In this document: in pieces, positions 5,829-23,594 of the stretch
Layout of the letters: each line of letters begins with the position of its first letter
Position numbering within the stretch: position 1 is the first letter of the stretch
IMG/VR virus record: IMGVR_UViG_3300021957_000311
Coordinates: 1-23,594 of that record
Reading direction: 5' to 3' (one strand)
DNA length: 23,594 nt
Origin: a virus
Made by a program: the position numbers and the translations under genes
Notes under the pieces: generated by a model
Databases searched by the model: none
What the model saw: the letters and a program-made list of their open reading frames with translations, nothing else
Told to the model about the DNA's origin: nothing

Positions 5829-5836
5829 TATTTATA
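5829..5836 (-). promoter_or_regulatory. T4-type late promoter (TATAAATA) for the sheath gene
   Basis: An exact TATAAATA on the minus strand lies in the 82-base gap between the terminase stop (5849) and sheath start (5766). In T4 this motif is read by the gp55/gp33 sigma complex late in infection. The leader would be roughly 50 bases. It would raise expression of sheath and tube relative to terminase. Confidence 0.75.
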
Positions 5837-12844: not shown

Positions 12845-12852
12845 TATTTATA
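12845..12852 (-). promoter_or_regulatory. T4-type late promoter (TATAAATA) for the accessory/neck operon
   Basis: An exact TATAAATA on the minus strand lies 31 bases before the ATG at 12814. It is the natural start of the late operon running through the small beta proteins into genes 13-17. Confidence 0.75.
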
Positions 12853-12928: not shown

Positions 12929-13702
12929 CTATCTTCTTTCAATATCATCTTCTGATAATTCATTACCCATCCATACTTCAATAACCTTAACAGGAACATT
13001 ACCAACGTTAGTTGCATGATGCCAAGTCTTAGAAGGTATGTCTATACTATCACCAGTTTTATATACCTTAGACGTACTATAACCATTAGAGAACTCTAAA
13101 TCCATTTTAAGCTTACCATCAACGATATGCCAATGCTCAGAACGTATAAAGTGTCTTTGATCAGATAATGATTTATTAACGTCAATAGACAACTCTTTTA
13201 CTTTCCAATGACCATTCTGATCTAAGTCTCTATATTTACCCCATAGTCTTTGCGTAGTTGGTTTATCCCATTCTTTTAGAATCCATGATGAACTGTTCTT
13301 TTTATCTTCACCACCAACTCCAAAGACAAATGATATATTACATTCATCACGTAATTCTTTAGCAAACTCAACTTCTGGTGTTGTTCCTTTTTTTCTATCT
13401 CCACCATTTGCAAAGATAATCTCAGAGTTTCTAGGAGCTTGTTTAGCTACATATCGAATAGCATCACAGGCTGTATCATCTGAGTCATCAAAAGTAAATA
13501 CATGACCTACACACCCAAGTTCTTTGATAATAGACATACGTTCTTCGACAGACATAAAAGGTTTTCCCTTTTTGCGTGTCAGCCAATCATCACTATTAAG
13601 ACCAACAAATAGGATAGAACCCATTTCCTTAGCCGCTTTAAAATATGCAATATGTCCTGAGTGTAGGGGATCAAAACCCCCAGTTACGATCACTGGTTTC
13701 AT
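12929..13702 (-). CDS. Cytidylyltransferase-like nucleotidyltransferase fused to a mannose-6-phosphate-isomerase-type cupin
   Basis: Residues 1-145 form a nucleotidyltransferase of the RfaE/TagD type: G-G-F-D-P-L-H-S-G-H-I (8-18) with the catalytic H-x-G-H (14-17), and an N-S-S-S-W stretch (136-140) where the family has its S/T-rich ATP loop. Residues 152-247 are a cupin like the C-terminal part of type II phosphomannose isomerases, with R-L-W-G-K-Y, H-F-I-R-S-E-H-W (184-191), D-I-P-S-K-T-W-H-H (221-229). Likely role: activating a sugar or alcohol phosphate for surface glycan work. The frame extends to 13729, but the ATG at 13702 is chosen: GAAGG lies 7 bases upstream and it overlaps the preceding stop as ATGA. 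Confidence 0.88.
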   Translation of the reverse strand: MKPVIVTGGFDPLHSGHIAYFKAAKEMGSILFVGLNSDDWLTRKKGKPFMSVEERMSIIKELGCVGHVFTFDDSDDTACDAIRYVAKQAPRNSEIIFANGGDRKKGTTPEVEFAKELRDECNISFVFGVGGEDKKNSSSWILKEWDKPTTQRLWGKYRDLDQNGHWKVKELSIDVNKSLSDQRHFIRSEHWHIVDGKLKMDLEFSNGYSTSKVYKTGDSIDIPSKTWHHATNVGNVPVKVIEVWMGNELSEDDIERR

Positions 13703-14934
13703 TTTCTTTCCTTCATCATATAATCCCAAATAAAGTTCTTACTTTTATTAGACTTCATATTGTTATTTATGTAACCAGGATGTACCCACCAATCCTCATA
13801 AGAATTGTTATTATCTATAGAGACATCAGGAACAAACAACTTATATCCAATATTTTTTAGATACTCTCTTGATTTGTCTTTGATCTCAGAACCCCACCAA
13901 CATTCATTGTGTTGAAACTGTATAATTGAGAACTCATACTTTTGGAATGGAATTTCACCCAAAACTGATAGAGATGCTTGATCTGCATTAATTCTTAGGA
14001 ATTCTGTATGTTGCTCAATACAATTCTGTTTAAATAACTTTTTATAATCTATAGTTGACGCATCTTCCAGAATAATTTTTGTATTACGTTCCCTACTGAA
14101 CATAGCACACATTCTTTCGTCTCTATCTATAGACAAACCTCTCCAACCAAATTCTTTTTCTAGTAAGTATGTGTTATTAAATAGCTTAGGGTGTCCCGAC
14201 CCAATTTCTACAAAGCTACCGCCCTTCTTACCTTTAAGTAGTGATAGGACAAACATATCTTGGAAGTGGCGAGAATAGTTCTTCTCCACATTCTCAAGAC
14301 CATCAAATTTGTGTTTGTATTTCTCAATTTCTTCTTTGCGATATACTAACGTACTAGGATAGCCAATGTGACTTAACAAATCAGTAACTTCTGTATCCAT
14401 TTCAGATGTCATGTTAAGTTTATTTTTGTGCTTTAGATTGAATAGTAAATTCTTTGAATCGTCTCTGCCATCTGTTTTCCATTTAGACATTGCATAGATA
14501 TATTCAAGACCTACTTGGCCAGGATAGTTTAGTTCTTCACTGTGTTCTACTAATTCTAAGCCTAGCCCTATTTTAGAGTACATTAACGAGTCACGCCAAT
14601 TACTAATCTCTTTGGAATGTTTAGCCGCAAAATAATATGCTTCTGGTCTATCTGGTAGTATAGTCATAGCCATCTTGTAAAGACCTATAACCGTTTGACC
14701 ACGAGCCTCTGATCTGTCGAAAATCTGTCCACCCAATACCATACAGTTATATTGTAATTTCTTTTCTTCCCACGTTTCACCTTCGCAAAAATCAGCCGCC
14801 CTAAGATACCAACCAAAAGCCGCCGCACCCTGTTTCAGTGAATCATACTCACGAGCAAGAGCGTACATCTTAAATGGATTAGAATAGTCCATGACAACAT
14901 CATTCAAAACTTTCATATTCTTAAATCTCATCAT
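13699..14934 (-). CDS. TPR-like N-terminus plus FkbM-type SAM methyltransferase domain
   Basis: 411 aa from the ATG at 14934, chosen because AGAAGG lies 5 bases upstream; the frame opens at a GTG at 14940. Residues about 15-190 are helical, TPR-like, rich in Y/A/L pairs such as A-F-G-W-Y-L-R-A-A and P-E-A-Y-Y-F-A-A-K. From about residue 219 there is a methyltransferase core with the SAM-binding loop V-E-I-G-S-G-H-P (242-249) and an acidic strand end S-I-D-R-D-E (268-273), as in FkbM-type enzymes, which methylate sugars or small molecules. A single chain with TPR scaffold and catalytic domain fits a glycan-modifying enzyme. It overlaps the next gene by 4 bases and the previous one by 14. Substrate unknown. 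Confidence 0.82.
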   Translation of the reverse strand: MMRFKNMKVLNDVVMDYSNPFKMYALAREYDSLKQGAAAFGWYLRAADFCEGETWEEKKLQYNCMVLGGQIFDRSEARGQTVIGLYKMAMTILPDRPEAYYFAAKHSKEISNWRDSLMYSKIGLGLELVEHSEELNYPGQVGLEYIYAMSKWKTDGRDDSKNLLFNLKHKNKLNMTSEMDTEVTDLLSHIGYPSTLVYRKEEIEKYKHKFDGLENVEKNYSRHFQDMFVLSLLKGKKGGSFVEIGSGHPKLFNNTYLLEKEFGWRGLSIDRDERMCAMFSRERNTKIILEDASTIDYKKLFKQNCIEQHTEFLRINADQASLSVLGEIPFQKYEFSIIQFQHNECWWGSEIKDKSREYLKNIGYKLFVPDVSIDNNNSYEDWWVHPGYINNNMKSNKSKNFIWDYMMKERK

Positions 14935-16228: not shown

Positions 16229-16558
16229 TTACCAGTCTGGTACGAACGTATTCATTGTATTTATCTCAACCTTCTTAGCCAAAACTTTGTTGATAACATC
16301 CATTTCGCTTTCAGTCATAGATTCTTCTATCCAAGATACAACATCTGCTTTTGTAACATCATCTAGTTCGATGTAATCAGCCGCCGATGTAGATGAAAGA
16401 TCAAGTAATGTTTTGCCAACATAAGTAGCTTTTTTGTTGGCATCATTAGTAGCAATCTTTCTCCACTTGATAGAAATGATTGCATCTGCTAACACATCAC
16501 CATCGCTATTTGTTTGGTCAAGGGTTCCAAGCTTTAGTATTTCCCATGTGTAGTTCAT
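16229..16558 (-). CDS. Small phage protein, paralogue of the next upstream gene (DUF7936-like, 109 aa)
   Basis: It starts M-N-Y-T-W-E-I-L-K-L-G-T and shares the layout of the 127-aa neighbour: a beta N-terminus, D-A-I-I-S-I-K-W-R, a degraded G-x-x-G segment, then D-V-T-K-A-D-V-V-S-W-I-E (67-78) and a helical C-terminus. I associate this pattern with DUF7936-type proteins of marine phages (recollection, not a search). Function unknown. It ends in V-P-D-W, 35 bases before the GH130-like gene. Confidence 0.75.
   Translation of the reverse strand: MNYTWEILKLGTLDQTNSDGDVLADAIISIKWRKIATNDANKKATYVGKTLLDLSSTSAADYIELDDVTKADVVSWIEESMTESEMDVINKVLAKKVEINTMNTFVPDW
16258..16265 (-). promoter_or_regulatory. 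Possible late promoter, one mismatch (GATAAATA), upstream of the GH130-like gene
   Basis: GATAAATA on the minus strand lies inside the 3' end of the 109-aa gene, 65 bases before the ATG at 16193. Its location inside coding sequence weakens the case. Confidence 0.3.
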
Positions 16559-16573
16559 AATCGTTACTTTCTA

Positions 16574-16957
16574 TTATTCATCACCTGATGGTGCTGGTGT
16601 TGCTTCACCCCAAGGTAGGTCTGCGCCAGTTTTCTCTACAGCAATATCTTTATCAATTTCTTTTTGAATTTGCATATCGATGTGAGCTTTGTATCCTGGG
16701 TCTGAATCAATTACGTTTGTAATCCAACCAATTACTGTTGCTTCTTCTAGGTCTTCAAAAGCAGTAAACGAACCCGCTGGTACGTTAGCCGCACTGAATG
16801 GTGTAGCACCTGTAAATGAACCTTCGTTGCCTTCTTCATCAGTACCTACGATGTCCCAATAAGTTTGAACCACTGCGTTTGTTAAAGTTTCACCAGCAGC
16901 GTTAACTTCATCTTTTACCTTTAGGTTTCTGACAGTATATGTATATGTAAATGCCAT
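16574..16957 (-). CDS. Small phage protein (DUF7936-like, 127 aa)
   Basis: It starts M-A-F-T-Y-T-Y-T-V. It then has V-V-Q-T-Y-W-D-I-V-G-T-D (29-40), E-E-G-N-E-G-S-F-T-G-A-T-P-F (41-54), F-E-D-L-E-E-A-T-V-I-G-W-I (67-79) and I-D-M-Q-I-Q-K-E-I-D (93-102). This is the canonical form of a small protein family that I recall as widespread in marine phages; the 109-aa neighbour is a diverged copy. The C-terminus is a Pro/Glu tail. GGAGAAA precedes the ATG, with two late-promoter motifs upstream. Function unknown; a small beta virion protein is possible. Confidence 0.8.
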   Translation of the reverse strand: MAFTYTYTVRNLKVKDEVNAAGETLTNAVVQTYWDIVGTDEEGNEGSFTGATPFSAANVPAGSFTAFEDLEEATVIGWITNVIDSDPGYKAHIDMQIQKEIDKDIAVEKTGADLPWGEATPAPSGDE

Positions 16958-17026: not shown

Positions 17027-17034
17027 TATTTATA
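17027..17034 (-). promoter_or_regulatory. T4-type late promoter (TATAAATA) for the DUF7936-like genes
   Basis: An exact TATAAATA on the minus strand begins just past the oxygenase stop (17039), 70 bases before the ATG at 16957. It probably starts the transcript for the two paralogous small genes and the downstream cassette. Confidence 0.7.
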
Positions 17035-17038
17035 CGTT

Positions 17039-17599
17039 TTAACCACGGTACAAATATAAATCTACAGGAACGCATATACGCAAAGTAGAATAGTAAGGGT
17101 TAACGTGATGGTATGTGAAACTGGGAAAAATCATAAAATCTCCCGTTCTTGGGGTAATTGCATGTCTATCAAACAAAGGATTAAACCAATCATCATATCC
17201 CCTATTAGCATTGCTTCTTGGGTCAGAAAATACTATGTCACCACCACTATTTTGATCTTCTGCTAATATGTAAAATACACCAGATAAGTGTGCGCCAGAA
17301 TGATTATGTATAGTCATGTTATAGTCTTTGCTATGACCTGTAATCCATGCTTTCATTTCATGACTTTTAAAATCTTCAATACTTTTATTAATAGAGTGCT
17401 TTAGGTAATCGTTAAACTTATCGTGTACTAATGACTTGAACTTATTCATTACATCAGAGTTATCTTTAAATATATTACCGCCATCTACCTCTCCTGTTAA
17501 ATCATTTAAGTTGTAGGTAGTGAATATGTGTTCAACAAGCCCTTCAACGTCAAATTTTCCAGAACCAATGGTAGTAGGCCAATGCGGATTAAAATCCAT
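17039..17599 (-). CDS. Fe(II)/2-oxoglutarate-dependent oxygenase (2OG-FeII_Oxy_5-like, 186 aa)
   Basis: The double-stranded beta-helix motifs are M-T-I-H-N-H-S (95-101, candidate ligands H98/H100), L-S-G-V-F-Y-I (105-111), G-G-D-I-V-F-S-D-P-R (119-128), G-D-F-M-I-F-P (153-159), distal His in Y-H-H-V-N-P (163-168) and R174 for 2-oxoglutarate. This is the pattern of the phage 2OG-Fe(II) oxygenases often annotated as prolyl-hydroxylase-like. The frame extends to 17626, but the ATG at 17599 is taken: AAGGAG (17606-17611) lies 6 bases before it, and the late promoter at 17627-17634 would start RNA downstream of the 17626 codon. The gene diverges from the plus-strand operon that begins with a second oxygenase-like protein. 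Substrate unknown. Confidence 0.9.
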   Translation of the reverse strand: MDFNPHWPTTIGSGKFDVEGLVEHIFTTYNLNDLTGEVDGGNIFKDNSDVMNKFKSLVHDKFNDYLKHSINKSIEDFKSHEMKAWITGHSKDYNMTIHNHSGAHLSGVFYILAEDQNSGGDIVFSDPRSNANRGYDDWFNPLFDRHAITPRTGDFMIFPSFTYHHVNPYYSTLRICVPVDLYLYRG

Positions 17600-17605
17600 A
17601 ACAGT

Positions 17606-17611
17606 CTCCTT
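17606..17611 (-). promoter_or_regulatory. Ribosome-binding site deciding the oxygenase start
   Basis: AAGGAG on the minus strand, 6 bases before the ATG at 17599. It overrules the longer frame starting at 17626. Confidence 0.8.
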
Positions 17612-17626
17612 CATGATATATGACAT

Positions 17627-17634
17627 TATTTATA
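17627..17634 (-). promoter_or_regulatory. T4-type late promoter (TATAAATA) for the oxygenase gene
   Basis: An exact TATAAATA on the minus strand, 28 bases before the chosen ATG. It forms one half of a back-to-back promoter pair with the plus-strand motif at 17674-17681. Confidence 0.75.
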
Positions 17635-17647
17635 ACAAATCTTTGAG

Positions 17648-17681
17648 TTGACATTTTGGACTAAATATGGTAGTATAAATA
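17648..17681 (+). promoter_or_regulatory. Compound promoter of the radical-SAM operon: TTGACA, TAGTAT and an exact TATAAATA
   Basis: TTGACA (17648-17653) is followed after 17 bases by TAGTAT (17671-17676), a sigma-70 layout with a weak -10. Overlapping it is an exact late box TATAAATA (17674-17681). The start codon at 17706 is 25 bases further on. The operon may therefore be expressed both early by host polymerase and late by the phage sigma. Confidence 0.6.
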
Positions 17682-17705: not shown

Positions 17706-18158
17706 ATGACATTTATCGACTTTGAAAACTTTCTGCTAACAGAAGAGTGTTTTGATAACCATGATGTTTCTTATATAGACGAAGATGGTAATCAACACTA
17801 CATAGAACAAACTGACTTCATCTCATATGTTGGGACTGTAGCTAGGTTGTTGTCTGAGAGTAGAACTATGAAAGTCGAGCAAATAGAGACTTTACTGTTT
17901 GTTAAAGGAACTGTTCATGCCTTTTACAATCAAAAGAATGGCGCATCATTTGATGTTCATACAGACCCTGTAGATGTTTTTATAGAATGTCTTGCTGGTA
18001 AGAAGATCATGGAAGTTGATGGCAAAGAGGTTGTGTTAGAAAAAGGCGATACGGTTTTAATACCATCAGGAACACCGCATAGAGCGTTAAATTATGAAAA
18101 GGCATTGATGTTATCACATGGCATTCACGACACAGAAACACTTAATCGTATACGTTAA
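17706..18158 (+). CDS. Compact JmjC/cupin_4-type Fe(II) oxygenase-like protein (150 aa)
   Basis: Residues 80-140 carry the core of JmjC/ribosomal-oxygenase cupins: S-F-D-V-H-T-D-P-V-D-V-F (81-92) with H85-x-D87, then L-A-G-K-K-I-M-E-V, then G-D-T-V-L-I-P-S-G-T-P-H-R-A (114-127) with distal H125. H85, D87 and H125 make a plausible Fe(II) facial triad. Known cupin_4 enzymes hydroxylate protein or RNA-associated residues using 2-oxoglutarate, but they are much larger; here only the catalytic barrel and a short N-terminal region remain. It is the first gene of the radical-SAM operon and overlaps the next by 41 bases, so a role in the same pathway is inferred. A non-catalytic cupin is the alternative. 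Confidence 0.78.
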   Translation: MTFIDFENFLLTEECFDNHDVSYIDEDGNQHYIEQTDFISYVGTVARLLSESRTMKVEQIETLLFVKGTVHAFYNQKNGASFDVHTDPVDVFIECLAGKKIMEVDGKEVVLEKGDTVLIPSGTPHRALNYEKALMLSHGIHDTETLNRIR

Positions 18159-19146
18159 GACCACCGAAACTTGTAATCTGAACTGCGCCCATTGTTTTAC
18201 TTCTGGTATTAACGGACGTAAGATTTACTTTGATGCGGATAAGACAGCGAAGTGGTGTAACGAATTAGACGATGGGTCAAATCAAATACACTTTGAGTAT
18301 CATGGTGGTGAGCCTCTGCTTGCACCCATGAAAGACCTGTGGCATTTCTACAATGTTACGAAAGAACATTGGGGTGATAAATGTACACATGGTATCACAA
18401 CAAATCTTACGTATAAACTGACTGACGAACGTGTTGAGTTTCTTAAGGTGTTAGATTCTGGTTCTATCGGTACATCATGGGACCCCAACATTCGTTTTGC
18501 AAACGAAAAGCAAAGACAGCTTTGGGAAGACAACGTAAAGCGTTTGGTTTCTGAAGGTTGTAACATCCAATGTTTTATTTCCGTATCTAAAGATGTTGTT
18601 GCAATGGAACCCCTTGAGATTGCTGATTATATGCATTCACTTGGAGTGGGTTCTATTAACTATGAACGATTGACCCACGATGGCAATGCAACAATTAATA
18701 CAGATATTTTTCCACATAACTCTGAGCTTGATGCTTTTTGGATGAAGATGCATGAGACGACTAAAGATCACCCTATACATAATAACTTTCTCAATTCAGT
18801 TTATGATAAGTTTAGTAAAGGTCAATTCTTTAATGGTACGTTCTGTAGGGATTGTGAGCAAAAGATACACACTATCAATGCTGATGGTACTGTAGCAGGT
18901 TGTCCTAATACTGCACCAACACAATGGTATGGTGACATCAGTATGCCAGCAAAGACAGTGAGAGAAAGCCCTAAGCGCATGGAAGTGATTGCTTGTGAGA
19001 CACATGAGCGTGACCCACGTTGTTACGACTGTCCTGTGTTTATCTATTGCCATTCTGATTGTCATCAGTTACAATGGATGGAAGACGTATGCCCAGCGCC
19101 TAAAACATTGATGTTGAAATTAGCGGGAGACAAAGGATGGATTTGA
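18118..19146 (+). CDS. Radical-SAM enzyme with full SPASM domain (rSAM-1, 342 aa)
   Basis: The radical-SAM cluster motif is C19-N-L-N-C23-A-H-C26 and the SAM-binding G-G-E is at 63-65. The C-terminal SPASM domain is complete: C246 to C262 across I-N-A-D-G-T-V-A-G-C, then C302-x2-C305-x5-C311-x3-C315 and C325, enough ligands for two auxiliary 4Fe-4S clusters. SPASM enzymes such as AlbA and anaerobic sulfatase-maturating enzymes act mostly on peptides or proteins. The core motif begins 19 residues from the N-terminus, so no separate peptide-recognition (RRE) domain is present. The ATG at 18118 has a weak ribosome site and lies inside the previous gene, suggesting coupling. Confidence 0.93.
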   Translation: MAFTTQKHLIVYVKTTETCNLNCAHCFTSGINGRKIYFDADKTAKWCNELDDGSNQIHFEYHGGEPLLAPMKDLWHFYNVTKEHWGDKCTHGITTNLTYKLTDERVEFLKVLDSGSIGTSWDPNIRFANEKQRQLWEDNVKRLVSEGCNIQCFISVSKDVVAMEPLEIADYMHSLGVGSINYERLTHDGNATINTDIFPHNSELDAFWMKMHETTKDHPIHNNFLNSVYDKFSKGQFFNGTFCRDCEQKIHTINADGTVAGCPNTAPTQWYGDISMPAKTVRESPKRMEVIACETHERDPRCYDCPVFIYCHSDCHQLQWMEDVCPAPKTLMLKLAGDKGWI

Positions 19147-20174
19147 TTATTAAGCCAACCGAGGCTTGTAACTTTAAATGTACGTTTTGTTCTTCGACTG
19201 ACATCGACCCCAATGAAGTTGGGCTGTTGGACTTGGAATATATCTATCGTTTCTTGAAAAGGTATCCTGATACTAACACAATCATTGTTAATGGTGGTGA
19301 CCCACTTATGGTCAAGCCAGAGTATTACCAAGAACTGATAGACCATCTTGATGAACATGATTACCCAGCATATATTAGCTTTACATCTAACCTATGGCCT
19401 TTCTTAATGCGCCCAGAGAAGTGGCTACCCATCTTCAAGAACGAAAGATTTGGTTGTGCAACATCATTTCAATATGGTGGTGGTAGACTAAAAGGTGACT
19501 ATTCAGAGTTTACAGAAAAAGACTTTTGGATGGTGTCTGATGCTATGTTAAAACATACTGGCGAACGTCCACCCTTTATTGCGGTTATTACAGAAGAGAA
19601 TGAACATCTTGCTATCAAGAACGTTGAGCTTGCCAAAGAGATGGACGTGGAGTGTAAGTTAAACTATGCTATGGCGTCTGGCGTACAAGGTAGCACGTAT
19701 CAGTTAAGTAAGATTTACGAAACATACCTTGAAATATATGATCGTGGTTTAGCTGAATATGAGTTCAACACTAAACAAATGATGAAACGTCTCCAAGGCT
19801 TTTCAACTACTTGCCCTCAAAATAGGCATTGCGATGGTGGCATTCGTGCATTCAACCCAGGTGGTGACTATTACTCTTGTGGCTCTTTTGCTGATGATAT
19901 GGATTATCCTATTGATTTTGAGACTGAGATGAATGGTGAGATGCAGACACCTCTTCAAAATGATCCTAACATACAGACTATGAAAATGGCTTGTTACACT
20001 TGCCCTATGTTTGAAATATGTAATGGCTGTAAAAAGACAGTACGTGATATGAAACGTGAAGGGACAACTGAAGCACATTGCAAACAAATGAAATCACTCG
20101 CTCCAAGAATACTTGCTACGAATGGAATGAGTCCAGATATGGTGACGCCTTATGTTGATGAATCTATCAATTAA
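19137..20174 (+). CDS. Radical-SAM enzyme with variant SPASM domain (rSAM-2, 345 aa)
   Basis: The motif C11-N-F-K-C15-T-F-C18 lies near the extreme N-terminus. The G-G-E position reads G-G-D (53-55). The C-terminal auxiliary Cys set is C226/C232 with C248, then C286-x2-C289-x5-C295-x2-C298 and C315; the x2 spacing between C295 and C298 differs from the usual x3. Y-Y-S-C-G-S-F (245-251) fills the place of the usual G-x4-C. The start overlaps rSAM-1 by 10 bases, with GGGAGACAAAGG directly before the ATG, a convincing ribosome site. It probably works on the same or a linked substrate as its neighbours. Confidence 0.92.
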   Translation: MDLIIKPTEACNFKCTFCSSTDIDPNEVGLLDLEYIYRFLKRYPDTNTIIVNGGDPLMVKPEYYQELIDHLDEHDYPAYISFTSNLWPFLMRPEKWLPIFKNERFGCATSFQYGGGRLKGDYSEFTEKDFWMVSDAMLKHTGERPPFIAVITEENEHLAIKNVELAKEMDVECKLNYAMASGVQGSTYQLSKIYETYLEIYDRGLAEYEFNTKQMMKRLQGFSTTCPQNRHCDGGIRAFNPGGDYYSCGSFADDMDYPIDFETEMNGEMQTPLQNDPNIQTMKMACYTCPMFEICNGCKKTVRDMKREGTTEAHCKQMKSLAPRILATNGMSPDMVTPYVDESIN

Positions 20175-21066
20175 TCCGACATACTATTGCAACTTTGCCT
20201 GTGACTTTTGCTACTTGACAACAGCACAATTAAATGATAGACATAAGATAACACCGCTATGGTTAGATCATTCGTTACGTCAAATAAACGATCCTATTGG
20301 ACATGTTGATCTGTATGGTGGTGAGATTGGGTTATTGACGCCAGAATACTTCTATGAACTAAAAAGTATTATAAGAAGATATTACGATGGTGATATAAAC
20401 ATCAATACAAACCTTTCTGCGTTTCCAGACTTCTTTCGAGATGATGATGTGACGTTATCTGTATCGTATGACTTTCATGCAAGAGAGAAAGAACAGCACG
20501 TTCTGAATAACATGATGAACGCAAATAAAGATTTATCTGTTCTAATATTAGCTAGTCCTAAAGTTTTAGAGATGGATGTTGAATTTATGATCTTTACGTT
20601 GAATATGATTTCTAATGTAAAGTCAGTTGAGATTAAACCTTATTCAATTAACCAAGCTAATGCTCACCCTGTCACGCATAAAGACTTTGAAGACTTCGTT
20701 ATTAAGTTTGATGAAGCAAAGACAGAAAAGAAGTTTAACTTTCAAAATATGGATAACATATGGCGAAGTATAGATAAAGAATATGATGCGTTTAGTAATG
20801 ATCACGTATATATTACACCTAAGGGTAAATATGGTGTGCTTGAGTTCGATAAATACGATAAGGAATACTTCAAAGAATACGATACATACTATGAATACAA
20901 GAAGTGGGCTAGGGAAGAACCTGAGAACAATCTAAGCGAAATATGTAAGACGTGTAAATATTATGGTAATTGTTTGACAGAACATTATCGGTATGTAAAG
21001 GATTTGACTAATAGTTGTAATGGATACAAAGGATTGTTAGAATATTATGAAAGAATGGAAAGCTAG
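20152..21066 (+). CDS. Radical-SAM enzyme with reduced (twitch-like) auxiliary motif (rSAM-3, 304 aa)
   Basis: The cluster motif is C13-N-F-A-C17-D-F-C20 and G-G-E is at 56-58. The C-terminus has only C265-x2-C268-x5-C274 and C289, enough for one auxiliary cluster. The first SPASM Cys pair is absent: the region that would hold it, I-T-P-K-G-K-Y-G-V-L (221-230), keeps the beta hairpin but has no Cys. It is shorter than rSAM-1 and rSAM-2. The start at 20152 overlaps rSAM-2 by 23 bases; a second in-frame ATG at 20158 is possible. A related but distinct reaction on the pathway is inferred. Confidence 0.9.
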   Translation: MLMNLSINPTYYCNFACDFCYLTTAQLNDRHKITPLWLDHSLRQINDPIGHVDLYGGEIGLLTPEYFYELKSIIRRYYDGDININTNLSAFPDFFRDDDVTLSVSYDFHAREKEQHVLNNMMNANKDLSVLILASPKVLEMDVEFMIFTLNMISNVKSVEIKPYSINQANAHPVTHKDFEDFVIKFDEAKTEKKFNFQNMDNIWRSIDKEYDAFSNDHVYITPKGKYGVLEFDKYDKEYFKEYDTYYEYKKWAREEPENNLSEICKTCKYYGNCLTEHYRYVKDLTNSCNGYKGLLEYYERMES

Positions 21067-21445
21067 ACAAAGCGCATATCATTTGACAGCATCTTTATTC
21101 AAAGATGATCTGACTGATGTGGAGATTAATTGGCAACCTGACCTTACGGTTGAGTTTGCTCTAACACACTTCAGAGAGTATGTAGACGAATGGATTTATC
21201 CAGCCAAATCATATGTGGTTGCGATATGTTATGCCCATTGGCTTAGTAAAGACTTCAATGAAGACTTCTTTGATGCACTAAATGATCCAGAATTGCTATT
21301 TAATAATGACCCCCATTTTGTTCCATATTGGCAAGACAAAGAAACTTATGATGAAATACTCGCCCAACTAGACTTTAACGAGAAGCTTGGTATGGTTCCT
21401 GACATATACGAATACTATAAAGAGGAAATGTTATTTGGACTTTAA
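21047..21445 (+). CDS. Orphan 132-aa acidic helical protein within the radical-SAM operon
   Basis: Not recognised. It is acidic and mostly helical, rich in aromatic residues (for example E-Y-V-D-E-W-I-Y-P-A and V-V-A-I-C-Y-A-H-W-L), with no signal peptide, membrane segment or Cys-rich motif. It overlaps rSAM-3 by 20 bases and rSAM-4 by 11. AAAGGA lies some 13 bases upstream of the ATG, so translation is probably coupled. A separate recognition or chaperone subunit is possible because the radical-SAM proteins lack N-terminal recognition domains. It could equally be the substrate or an unrelated passenger. Confidence 0.8.
   Translation: MKEWKARQSAYHLTASLFKDDLTDVEINWQPDLTVEFALTHFREYVDEWIYPAKSYVVAICYAHWLSKDFNEDFFDALNDPELLFNNDPHFVPYWQDKETYDEILAQLDFNEKLGMVPDIYEYYKEEMLFGL
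21421..21426 (+). promoter_or_regulatory. Ribosome-binding site deciding the TTG start of rSAM-4
   Basis: AGAGGA lies 8 bases before the TTG at 21435, within the end of the 132-aa gene. No in-frame ATG lies between the start of the open frame and the cluster motif. Confidence 0.65.
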
Positions 21446-22511
21446 TATAACAAAACAGTTATTAGAAACTAAGCGACCCGACATCGCTGAGATTGAGTTG
21501 ACGTTGTTTGAAAACTGTCACCTTAACTGTTCTTTTTGTCATCACGACAAGAAGTCAACTGTAGGCTTGTCAAGAGAAGAAATATTCTCCAAGCTTGATT
21601 TAGTTGAACAACATGTTATTAAAATGAAAGGCAGAGTAGACATTATCCAAATCAATATGGTTGGTGGTGAACTATTCCAAGATCGTATATCAGAGTGGGC
21701 TTACCCAGTTTATTATGACTTTCTAGTTGCAATTAAGAAAATATTCGATGAACACGAGCAAAAGATTAAAGTTGTTTGGGTTACTTCTTTTCAGTTTAGC
21801 AAGAGAGATAGGGTAGAAAAACTATTAGACGATCTAAACGCTGTAGACATTCCTTCTTATATCATATGCTCTTATGACTTTGACGGAAGACCCACAAAAG
21901 GACCTTACGCAAAAAACATAGAATATTTCGCTGATTATATCGTATCAATTAATATGGTTGCTACTACTTTGTCAATCAAAAAGTTTATGGCTGATGATGA
22001 CGAATACTTCCACTATCTATACGAGAAGTTTGATGAGTTTTACTTTGATGATTATATACCAGACCGTGGGTTTGATTATATGATACCATCAGACAGTGAG
22101 TACCTAGAGTTCTTGAAGTTTGTATATCATAACTACCCCGACATCAATCCTATAAAAGACTTGATATATAACGAGAGCAACCACATGCACTGCTTGGCTC
22201 TTAATAAGGTTACAATCTTTCCTGATAACTCTACATCAAACTGTAGATGGGATAGATACGATCAACGTGACTTCAACACTAAATATGAACGCAAAGACAA
22301 TGCAGGTATGATGCAAGCCTATATGGATGAAAATGGTTGTTTGTCTTGTAAGTGGTGGAACAAATGTGGATTTAGATGTTACACTCAATGGGATTGGAAA
22401 AATAGAGAACGTGATCTACCAGATTGCATTATGAGAATGTGGTTCAATTATATGGACAAGACTGGTCAGAATTTAATTACAGGATTTGATTATGATAAAG
22501 AAAAAACTTAA
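21435..22511 (+). CDS. Radical-SAM enzyme with full SPASM domain, TTG start (rSAM-4, 358 aa)
   Basis: The start is the TTG at 21435 because AGAGGA lies 8 bases upstream, the overlap with the previous gene is 11 bases, and the N-terminus (M-D-F-N-I-T-K-Q) then has normal length. The frame opens at another TTG at 21387. Motifs: C28-H-L-N-C32-S-F-C35, M-V-G-G-E-L (75-80), C253 to C270 across I-F-P-D-N-S-T-S-N-C, then C302-x2-C305-x5-C311-x3-C315 and C331, a complete SPASM set. It has an acidic, aromatic-rich insert around 185-225. The weak start codon may keep its level below that of the other enzymes. Confidence 0.9.
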   Translation: MDFNITKQLLETKRPDIAEIELTLFENCHLNCSFCHHDKKSTVGLSREEIFSKLDLVEQHVIKMKGRVDIIQINMVGGELFQDRISEWAYPVYYDFLVAIKKIFDEHEQKIKVVWVTSFQFSKRDRVEKLLDDLNAVDIPSYIICSYDFDGRPTKGPYAKNIEYFADYIVSINMVATTLSIKKFMADDDEYFHYLYEKFDEFYFDDYIPDRGFDYMIPSDSEYLEFLKFVYHNYPDINPIKDLIYNESNHMHCLALNKVTIFPDNSTSNCRWDRYDQRDFNTKYERKDNAGMMQAYMDENGCLSCKWWNKCGFRCYTQWDWKNRERDLPDCIMRMWFNYMDKTGQNLITGFDYDKEKT

Positions 22512-23208
22512 ACTTGATTTTTATACACAGCATGGGGCAATCCTAGAGCTTCAACCAATTCAACCAAGATCAAAACCACCAACGTGGTGGAAATCAATAA
22601 AGAACACGTATGACACGTATAGGTCTAGGGTTGGTACTAAAATACCAACACCTACACTAAAGACTTGTCCTGGTGTAGTTGATTATATTCGTAAGCCTAT
22701 TACTCTTAAGTTGTGGTCTGATGCGATTTTTAAAGTAAAACCAGATGGTGATGTTGAATGTATTGAACCGCATTATGGGGCAGACATTATTTCTGGGGCA
22801 ATGCACGAGCGAAAGCAATTTGGTGATACGTTATATCCAAATAGAACAATTTTTAAACTGCACGGTCCTTGGACAGTTACAGCTAATCGTAGAGCAGAGT
22901 TCATGATTACTGAGGTACACTTTAGTGAAGATTTGCGAAAGCACAATATTCTACTCGTGCCTGGGATTACAAACTTTTATGACCAACATACCTTAAATGT
23001 GTTTTTAGTATTTCCTATTAAAGCTGAAGAATACACAGTGACACTCAAGTATGGTACACCTATCATGTCCATTTACCCAATGCACGAACAAGAATTAGAT
23101 ATTAAAATGCATAAGTGTTCACCACACGATTTTCAAGAATTCCAGAATGTATTTCCGTCAACTTTTATTGGTCGTTACCACACCGGGAAACACGCACGAA
23201 AGAAGTGA
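22492..23208 (+). CDS. Conserved-looking phage protein of unknown function (238 aa)
   Basis: The ATG at 22492 is chosen because AGGA lies 7 bases upstream; the open frame starts at a TTG at 22486. The N-terminal half has P-P-T-W-W-K (29-34), T-L-K-T-C-P-G-V-V-D-Y (55-65) and L-K-L-W-S-D (72-77). The remainder is beta-rich with H-G-P-W-T-V-T (about 122-128), and the C-terminus is basic. From memory this resembles a family of unknown function seen in marine myophages, related in layout to DUF6065-type proteins; not verified. It overlaps rSAM-4 by 20 bases and closes the operon. Its 3' end overlaps the convergent minus-strand gene by 51 bases. Confidence 0.82.
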   Translation: MIKKKLKLDFYTQHGAILELQPIQPRSKPPTWWKSIKNTYDTYRSRVGTKIPTPTLKTCPGVVDYIRKPITLKLWSDAIFKVKPDGDVECIEPHYGADIISGAMHERKQFGDTLYPNRTIFKLHGPWTVTANRRAEFMITEVHFSEDLRKHNILLVPGITNFYDQHTLNVFLVFPIKAEEYTVTLKYGTPIMSIYPMHEQELDIKMHKCSPHDFQEFQNVFPSTFIGRYHTGKHARKK

Positions 23209-23594
23209 GTGATGTTTCATATAACTTAGTACACCCTTATCAATACATGTCATCATATTAGGACAGGAGCCACAGTTATTCGTTTCAGCAGAGTACGTTA
23301 ATTGTTCCATAAACTGAAACGATTTTGCTTCTGTCCACGACTCAATGTCATTCTCATCTTTGACTTTAAATTCATCAGTACCTATTAAAGCGATGTCATA
23401 TACGAATGGCGTCCAAAAGAAACGTTCGTTACAGTAGGTGTAGTTTAACTCTAAAGAACCACCCTGTGCTTGATCTATGAACGTCTTGGGCATAAGATCA
23501 TCAGAGAAGTCATACCCTTTCCATTTCTCAATTAAGTGCTGCTGGACTTTACTCTTAGGCGCACGGAAGAACGATGGGTTTAGTGTGAGAATAG
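23158..23594 (-). CDS. C-terminal part of a probable fifth radical-SAM/SPASM-like protein (partial, runs off right edge)
   Basis: On the minus strand the frame is open from the right edge to a TGA at 23158, about 144 codons with no required start inside the window. The C-terminus contains N-N-C-G-S-C-P-N-M-M-T-C followed 16 residues later by S-C-V-F-P-G: C-x2-C-x5-C-x16-C, the same auxiliary-cluster spacing as in the four plus-strand radical-SAM proteins, most like rSAM-3. The radical-SAM core would lie outside the window, so the family call is inferred from this motif and its neighbours. The gene converges on and overlaps the plus operon. An unrelated zinc-binding protein is the alternative. 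Confidence 0.65.
   Translation of the reverse strand, partial: ILTLNPSFFRAPKSKVQQHLIEKWKGYDFSDDLMPKTFIDQAQGGSLELNYTYCNERFFWTPFVYDIALIGTDEFKVKDENDIESWTEAKSFQFMEQLTYSAETNNCGSCPNMMTCIDKGVLSYMKHHSLLSCVFPGVVTTNKS

Follow-up and report, generated by a model that had tools for sequence, protein, structure and literature searches.

Peptide maturation by radical S-adenosylmethionine (SAM) enzymes is known from bacterial natural products. In the His-Xaa-Ser system, the radical-SAM maturases HxsB and HxsC, together with HxsD, are encoded beside HxsA, a precursor with repeated H-x-S units. The precursors of darobactin and dynobactin, the products of the DarE and DynA systems, are short peptides, and the sulfatase target motif of anSME is C-x-P/A-x-R. 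Dynobactin has been listed among the ribosomally synthesized and post-translationally modified peptides (RiPPs) with His-containing cross-links (PMC10206099). Here, we analyzed a DNA stretch of 23,594 nucleotides from a marine T4-like phage (IMG/VR record IMGVR_UViG_3300021957_000311, positions 1 to 23,594), referred to as the window, in which seven genes, A to G, form an operon that includes four radical-SAM enzymes. The operon is probably the core of a phage RiPP-like maturation line that modifies the C-terminus of S, a late protein with a probable place in the virion.

S is a protein of 120-370 amino acids (aa) that ends exactly in the 16-residue tail CHxSCHxSCHxSRGRR and is encoded on longer relatives of the window. 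Its gene directly follows B in loci of the jumbo-phage type and forms a tandem pair beyond the gene r25 in loci of the window type. In the window's own lineage, this pair lies outside the window, accompanied by four or five further radical-SAM enzymes. L010 is the nearest relative with that region (89.5% DNA identity to the window), and there the S pair is found about 7.4 kb beyond G. The absence of a precursor claimed by the original prediction therefore holds for the window but not for the system, whose S lies just outside. The proteins directly after B end in CHSSCHTSCHGSRGRR in SURPRISE13, CHTSCHASCHSSRSRR in Phosso, CHSSCHASCHNSRSRR in Atu_ph07, and CHTSCHTSCHSARGRR in pPa_SNUABM_DT01, while their N-terminal parts are dissimilar; the S of SURPRISE13 belongs to phrog_35144. 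Comparison of the distinct S proteins without their tails gave 11 groups, none of which resembles another at E<1e-3. The tail is encoded by 147 distinct DNA versions, in which TGT and TGC, CAT and CAC, and six Arg codons are all used at fixed residues. Since synonymous codons vary freely at these residues, selection acts on the peptide. The three Cys-His pairs at fixed spacing and the many auxiliary clusters of the radical-SAM enzymes would also suit a metal or cofactor site, with the enzymes building or inserting a metallocofactor held by the CHxSCHxSCHxS repeats and the side chains left unchanged. However, the Ser positions are 80-92% constant, the terminal SRGRR and the Ser residues vary hardly more than Cys and His, and the closest radical-SAM families of B and C are those of peptide maturases, so a pure metal site is distinctly improbable.

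The association between tail and enzymes was assessed with the DNA pattern CHxxCHxxCHxxRxRR, which retrieved at least 120 viral stretches and 88 from bacterial or archaeal genomes. Loci with the motif exactly at a C-terminus were taken as genuine, which gave 115 viral loci among the matches listed and 17 genome loci. Radical-SAM families of the cluster were present in 110 of these 115 viral loci, again among the matches listed, and in 15 of the 17 genome loci. When any cluster gene was counted, the viral figure among the matches listed rose to 113, and two viral and two genome loci were left without any. By comparison, none of the 71 chance pattern matches in genomes had these families, and a system gene accompanied one of the five other viral matches among those listed. 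In this pattern-fetched set, C, H, and R are dictated by the query, and the Ser positions and the end position are free; the whole motif is freely tested only by the set fetched with B and E, which is independent of the motif search. In that set, the tail was present in all 17 loci that reach the S position past r25. A tblastn search with the 21 aa tail alone gave no match, the query being too short and of low complexity. B was clearly identified, and the gene after it could be read, at 157 loci; that following gene was S in 77 of them and C in 72. It might be argued that the enzymes act on another target, such as a surface glycan, a nucleotide, or a host protein, and that S is a partner or carrier, as their substrates are known from no assay and the helper genes u21/u30 and u22/u35 have no known function. 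Yet the tail, and not the rest of S, is common to all systems, as expected of a substrate site, and peptides are the substrates of SPASM enzymes in the nearest families; we regard another target as improbable.

The gene set recurs across unrelated phages. Searches by tblastn with B and with E returned the identical seven of 50,697 phage records, which are jumbo phages of Burkholderia, Agrobacterium, Sinorhizobium, and Pseudomonas. In these phages, A adjoins B, followed by the set of C, D, and E, with additional 2-oxoglutarate (2OG) oxygenases and radical-SAM genes. E was found in 47 and B in 45 IMG/VR loci, throughout which the gene order A-B-...-C-D-E is repeated; as the set recurs in dozens of contigs, the operon is far beyond chance. 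A near-identity DNA search with the right half of the window gave no match among sequenced phages. Nine radical-SAM genes are packed into about 13 kb in the T4-like relatives of the window. A maximum-likelihood phylogeny (81 sequences) resolved B, C, D, and F as four single clades (support 97-100), each with T4-like, jumbo-phage, and bacterial (Bdellovibrionota) members, which indicates that they are four old enzymes with separate jobs rather than recent copies. Single 2OG oxygenase and radical-SAM genes, annotated one by one, are common in marine and jumbo phages, and the operon could be taken for a chance assemblage of unconnected auxiliary metabolic genes in a variable region. This is barely credible, being contradicted by the joint retention of four orthologous clades in unrelated phages and bacteria, and by the overlapping genes, the shared late promoter, and the linked tail protein.

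The conserved core of the system consists of A, B, C, D, E, and F, and G is lineage-specific. G was also considered as a core member and rejected, as it had no match in the phages collection and its 39 loci are limited to part of the T4-like lineage. In one group of loci (L088, L091, L092, and L053), a tryptophan-halogenase-like flavoenzyme adjoins E in the cluster (PF04820, 8e-62; L092:19268-20533), where several 2OG oxygenases also occur. A second radical-SAM kind of about 580-640 aa that resembles the B12-binding type (family r38; L051:2247-4163, L304:6572-8311, and others) was observed in the cluster of many phages and of Halobacteriovoraceae.

Profile searches and alignments bore out the enzyme types that had been proposed from the window alone. 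The predicted JmjC-like oxygenase, A, scored above the cut-offs of Cupin_2 and JmjC_2 and has the metal triad of Fe(II) oxygenases in its cupin barrel (H86-x-D88...H126), invariant across 95 sequences. The four proposed CxxxCxxC enzymes, B, C, D, and F, all matched Radical_SAM and phrog_1802. The CxxxCxxC motif stands near the N-terminus of the barrel and was invariant among the aligned relatives of B, C, D, F, H, r10, r23, and r25. Auxiliary Cys residues follow toward the C-terminus, as in the radical-SAM superfamily, with eight conserved in B, eight in C, four in D, six in F, and four in H (107 relatives were aligned for B, 90 for F, and 21 for H). The SPASM domain model TIGR04085 was slightly under its cut-off of 27 bits in B (24.2) and C (21.9). 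The sequence CHSDCH in the SPASM region of B was considered as a substrate tail and rejected, as it is a cluster ligand sequence. The two proteins described as unknown, E and G, belong to phrog_20737 and phrog_7084, both phage families of unknown function. E was predicted by AlphaFold2 with a mean pLDDT (per-residue model confidence) of 90.8 from an alignment that left out rows from the phages collection. The original prediction, of a dedicated pathway modifying a virion protein, a host protein, or a surface molecule, was to be given up if the genes proved not to be conserved together or if profile searches assigned each radical-SAM gene to a housekeeping function. No radical-SAM gene of the operon reached the cut-off of a known housekeeping family, and unrelated phages have retained the genes as a set, so the prediction is supported, with a virion protein as the target being the best reading at present.

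The system belongs to none of the tested families (HxsA-D, DarE, DynA, and anSME). It resembles the His-Xaa-Ser system in that maturases are encoded with a protein of repeated H-x-S units, and B matched HxsB (1e-8, 34.5 of 370 bits) and C matched HxsC (4e-5, 22.7 of 267.9 bits), both far below cut-off, while S did not match the HxsA models. Unlike that system, the cluster described here has a Cys before each His, an SRGRR end, and four enzyme clades, and it is phage-borne. The nearest NCBIfam models, both matched over nearly the full length but below cut-off, were DarE for B (1.3e-12, 47.3 of 650 bits) and DynA for C (2.3e-12, 46.6 of 450 bits); PapB was also among the nearest models of B and C, far below cut-off. 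In contrast to the short precursors of DarE and DynA systems, S is a full-size protein. The best solved relative of C is anSME (4k36/4k37, 1.9e-6), at 39.1 of 349.45 bits and thus below cut-off. The last C-H-x-S-R of the tail has the Cys-to-Arg spacing of the anSME target motif, but the cluster has no sulfatase and the tail has three repeats instead of one. The families phrog_1802 (B, C, D, and F), phrog_20737 (E), and phrog_35144 (S of SURPRISE13) are unlinked catalogue entries without function. The searchable literature on phage RiPPs or virion modification gave single-gene annotations only and no described system, in agreement with the original prediction.

Judged from sequence, the S tail in its linked genes has one feature of RiPP systems, namely a ribosomal precursor with a constant, putatively modifiable core beside maturases. 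A true RiPP, in which S is only a large leader and cleavage frees the modified tail as a small peptide that acts as a toxin, a signal, or a metal binder during infection, would fit the enzyme types and the short Cys/His/Ser-rich C-terminal core, and the cluster is also present in bacterial chromosomes. Against release of a peptide, no peptidase or transporter was found among the annotated cluster genes, as had been predicted, although several cluster genes have no known family. In addition, S has N-terminal domains of full size that are predicted to be folded, unlike flexible leaders; the AlphaFold2 model of the L010 protein (126 aa) has a helix-and-hairpin body with a mean pLDDT of 80 and a loose tail below 60. 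The S of Atu_ph07 also sits at the edge of a published virion-protein cluster. Release of a small peptide is therefore unlikely.

Late expression is suggested by promoter matches. The sequence TATAAATA, the T4 late-promoter consensus, stands shortly before A, a match that the original prediction had overlooked. Of 32 distinct 120-base stretches upstream of A genes like that of the window, 18 contain it, compared with 0.7 expected from shuffling, and a late-promoter match also precedes S in relatives. The window contains five matches, at 5829-5836, 12845-12852, 17027-17034, and 17627-17634 (minus strand) and upstream of A, and all five directly precede a gene and face toward it, as T4 late promoters should. 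Because of the match upstream of A, the operon is presumably switched on alongside the virion genes. Electrospray ionization tandem mass spectrometry of Atu_ph07 assigned most virion proteins to three gene clusters, one of them coding sequences (CDS) 170-215 (Attai et al., PMC6102473). As far as the cluster bounds in that account go, CDS 170, the first of this cluster, is S (FDI40_gp170), and S is thus likely, though not proven, to be a virion protein.

In the proposed maturation line, the variable N-terminal domain of S would be the phage-specific body and the constant tail the modified part. B, C, D, and F would change residues in CHxSCHxSCHxSRGRR, A and the 2OG enzymes would oxidize the tail, and E and u30 would act as helpers. 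The 2OG oxygenases, and in one group the flavin halogenase, would add lineage-specific changes. Chemically, the side chains of Cys, His, and Ser are likely to be cross-linked or oxidized. By analogy, the H-x-S spacing would allow a His-containing cross-link like that of dynobactin, and formylglycine is a further option because of the sulfatase-like Cys-Arg spacing of the last C-H-x-S-R. S most likely stays whole and would enter the virion, probably in the tail or fibre region. Speculatively, the modified tail may help the phage attach to or cross the Gram-negative envelope, or it may stabilize a metal site.

Several points weigh against this maturation line. The substrate link between S and the enzymes is genetic only, the S genes are outside the window itself, and the invariance of C, H, and R in the pattern-fetched set is by construction. 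The presence of S in virions is read from the bounds of the published Atu_ph07 cluster. Fold comparisons returned nothing significant for S (PDB, BFVD, and VIA-align) and no reported match for E (PDB), which does not show that either fold is new.

The seven ORFs (open reading frames) of the operon occupy 17706-23208 (Table 1), as predicted, to the right of T4-like late structural genes for portal, tail tube, sheath, terminase, and neck, a setting that was likewise recognized correctly. From the first possible starts, the overlaps from A/B to F/G are 41, 10, 23, 20, 59, and 26 bases. The first four agree with the earlier values, and the last two of those values, 11 and 20, hold with later starts of F (TTG near 21435) and G (ATG 22492). 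The original inventory was right about the seven ORFs but overlooked H and X. L019 and L010 encode complete H proteins of 351 aa, which the fragment in the window resembles at 84-100%. The family of X is found inside the cluster in L088, L092, L008, and L140, and X is likely an accessory member of the system.

Table 1. Features of the operon and its flanks in the window.
Feature	Positions	Strand	Length	Evidence or remark
TATAAATA, T4-type late promoter match	17674-17681	+		24 bases upstream of A
A, cupin/JmjC-like Fe(II) oxygenase	17706-18158	+	150 aa	Cupin_2 1.7e-12, JmjC_2 3e-9
B, radical SAM/SPASM enzyme	18118-19146	+	342 aa	phrog_1802 5e-59
C, radical SAM/SPASM enzyme	19137-20174	+	345 aa	phrog_1802 6e-54
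D, radical SAM/twitch enzyme	20152-21066	+	304 aa	phrog_1802 1e-32
E, conserved helical protein	21047-21445	+	132 aa	phrog_20737 2e-36
F, radical SAM/SPASM-like	21387-22511	+	374 aa from first TTG	phrog_1802 1.7e-19; start uncertain
G, phrog_7084 protein	22486-23208	+	240 aa	phrog_7084 1.3e-17; or from ATG 22492
H, C-terminal part of further radical SAM/twitch enzyme	23158-23592	-		cut by window end; full-length H of relatives
X, 2OG-Fe(II) oxygenase	17039-17626	-		2OG-FeII_Oxy_5 4e-14; divergent neighbour of A

Other genes were noted around X and the virion genes. A tandem DUF7936/phrog_7802 pair (16229-16558 and 16574-16957, minus strand) adjoins X and is retained in most T4-like relatives. 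In another T4-like lineage, the place of this block beside X is taken by a 642 aa protein (L077:6677-8605, minus strand) that is glycosyltransferase-like by eye and has an oxygenase-like end. The protein encoded at 12929-13729 (minus strand) combines a nucleotidyltransferase-like N-terminus (phrog_7878, 3e-26) with a weak match to cysteine dioxygenase at its C-terminus, and is conserved beside virion genes among relatives.

The cluster is also carried by bacteria. Several of the genuine-tail genome loci belong to Bdellovibrionota, and B, S, u30, C, D, F, and E occur together in metagenome-assembled genomes of Halobacteriovoraceae and Bacteriovorax. The Halobacteriovoraceae cluster sits among chromosomal genes for acyl-CoA dehydrogenase, peroxidase, and FHA-domain proteins. 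The occurrence is patchy: in two orders, an exact tail was present in 5 of 129 genomes and 3 of 141 genomes, respectively. A protein with an endosialidase or tail-fibre-type S74 chaperone domain (L303:15655-16692, minus strand) adjoins the Halobacteriovoraceae cluster, which hints at a fibre-like partner. The same gene set in predatory bacteria raises the question of a role shared with phages. It is conceivable, although rather doubtful, that the tail is a densely cross-linked or oxidized, possibly metal-binding or chemically reactive tip on the phage particle and on predatory Bdellovibrionota. Such a tip would be a common tool for gripping or breaching Gram-negative envelopes, produced by a radical-SAM assembly line of unusual size that acts on a single protein end.

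The 16-residue tail can serve as a tag for finding such systems in raw DNA, and the system is accessible in the cultured phages Atu_ph07, FLC6, SURPRISE13, pPa_SNUABM_DT01, and Phosso. If the proposed maturation line is true, phage particles carry an unusual post-translational chemistry that nobody has looked for, and phrog_1802, phrog_20737, phrog_35144, and their neighbours would gain a joint, testable role.

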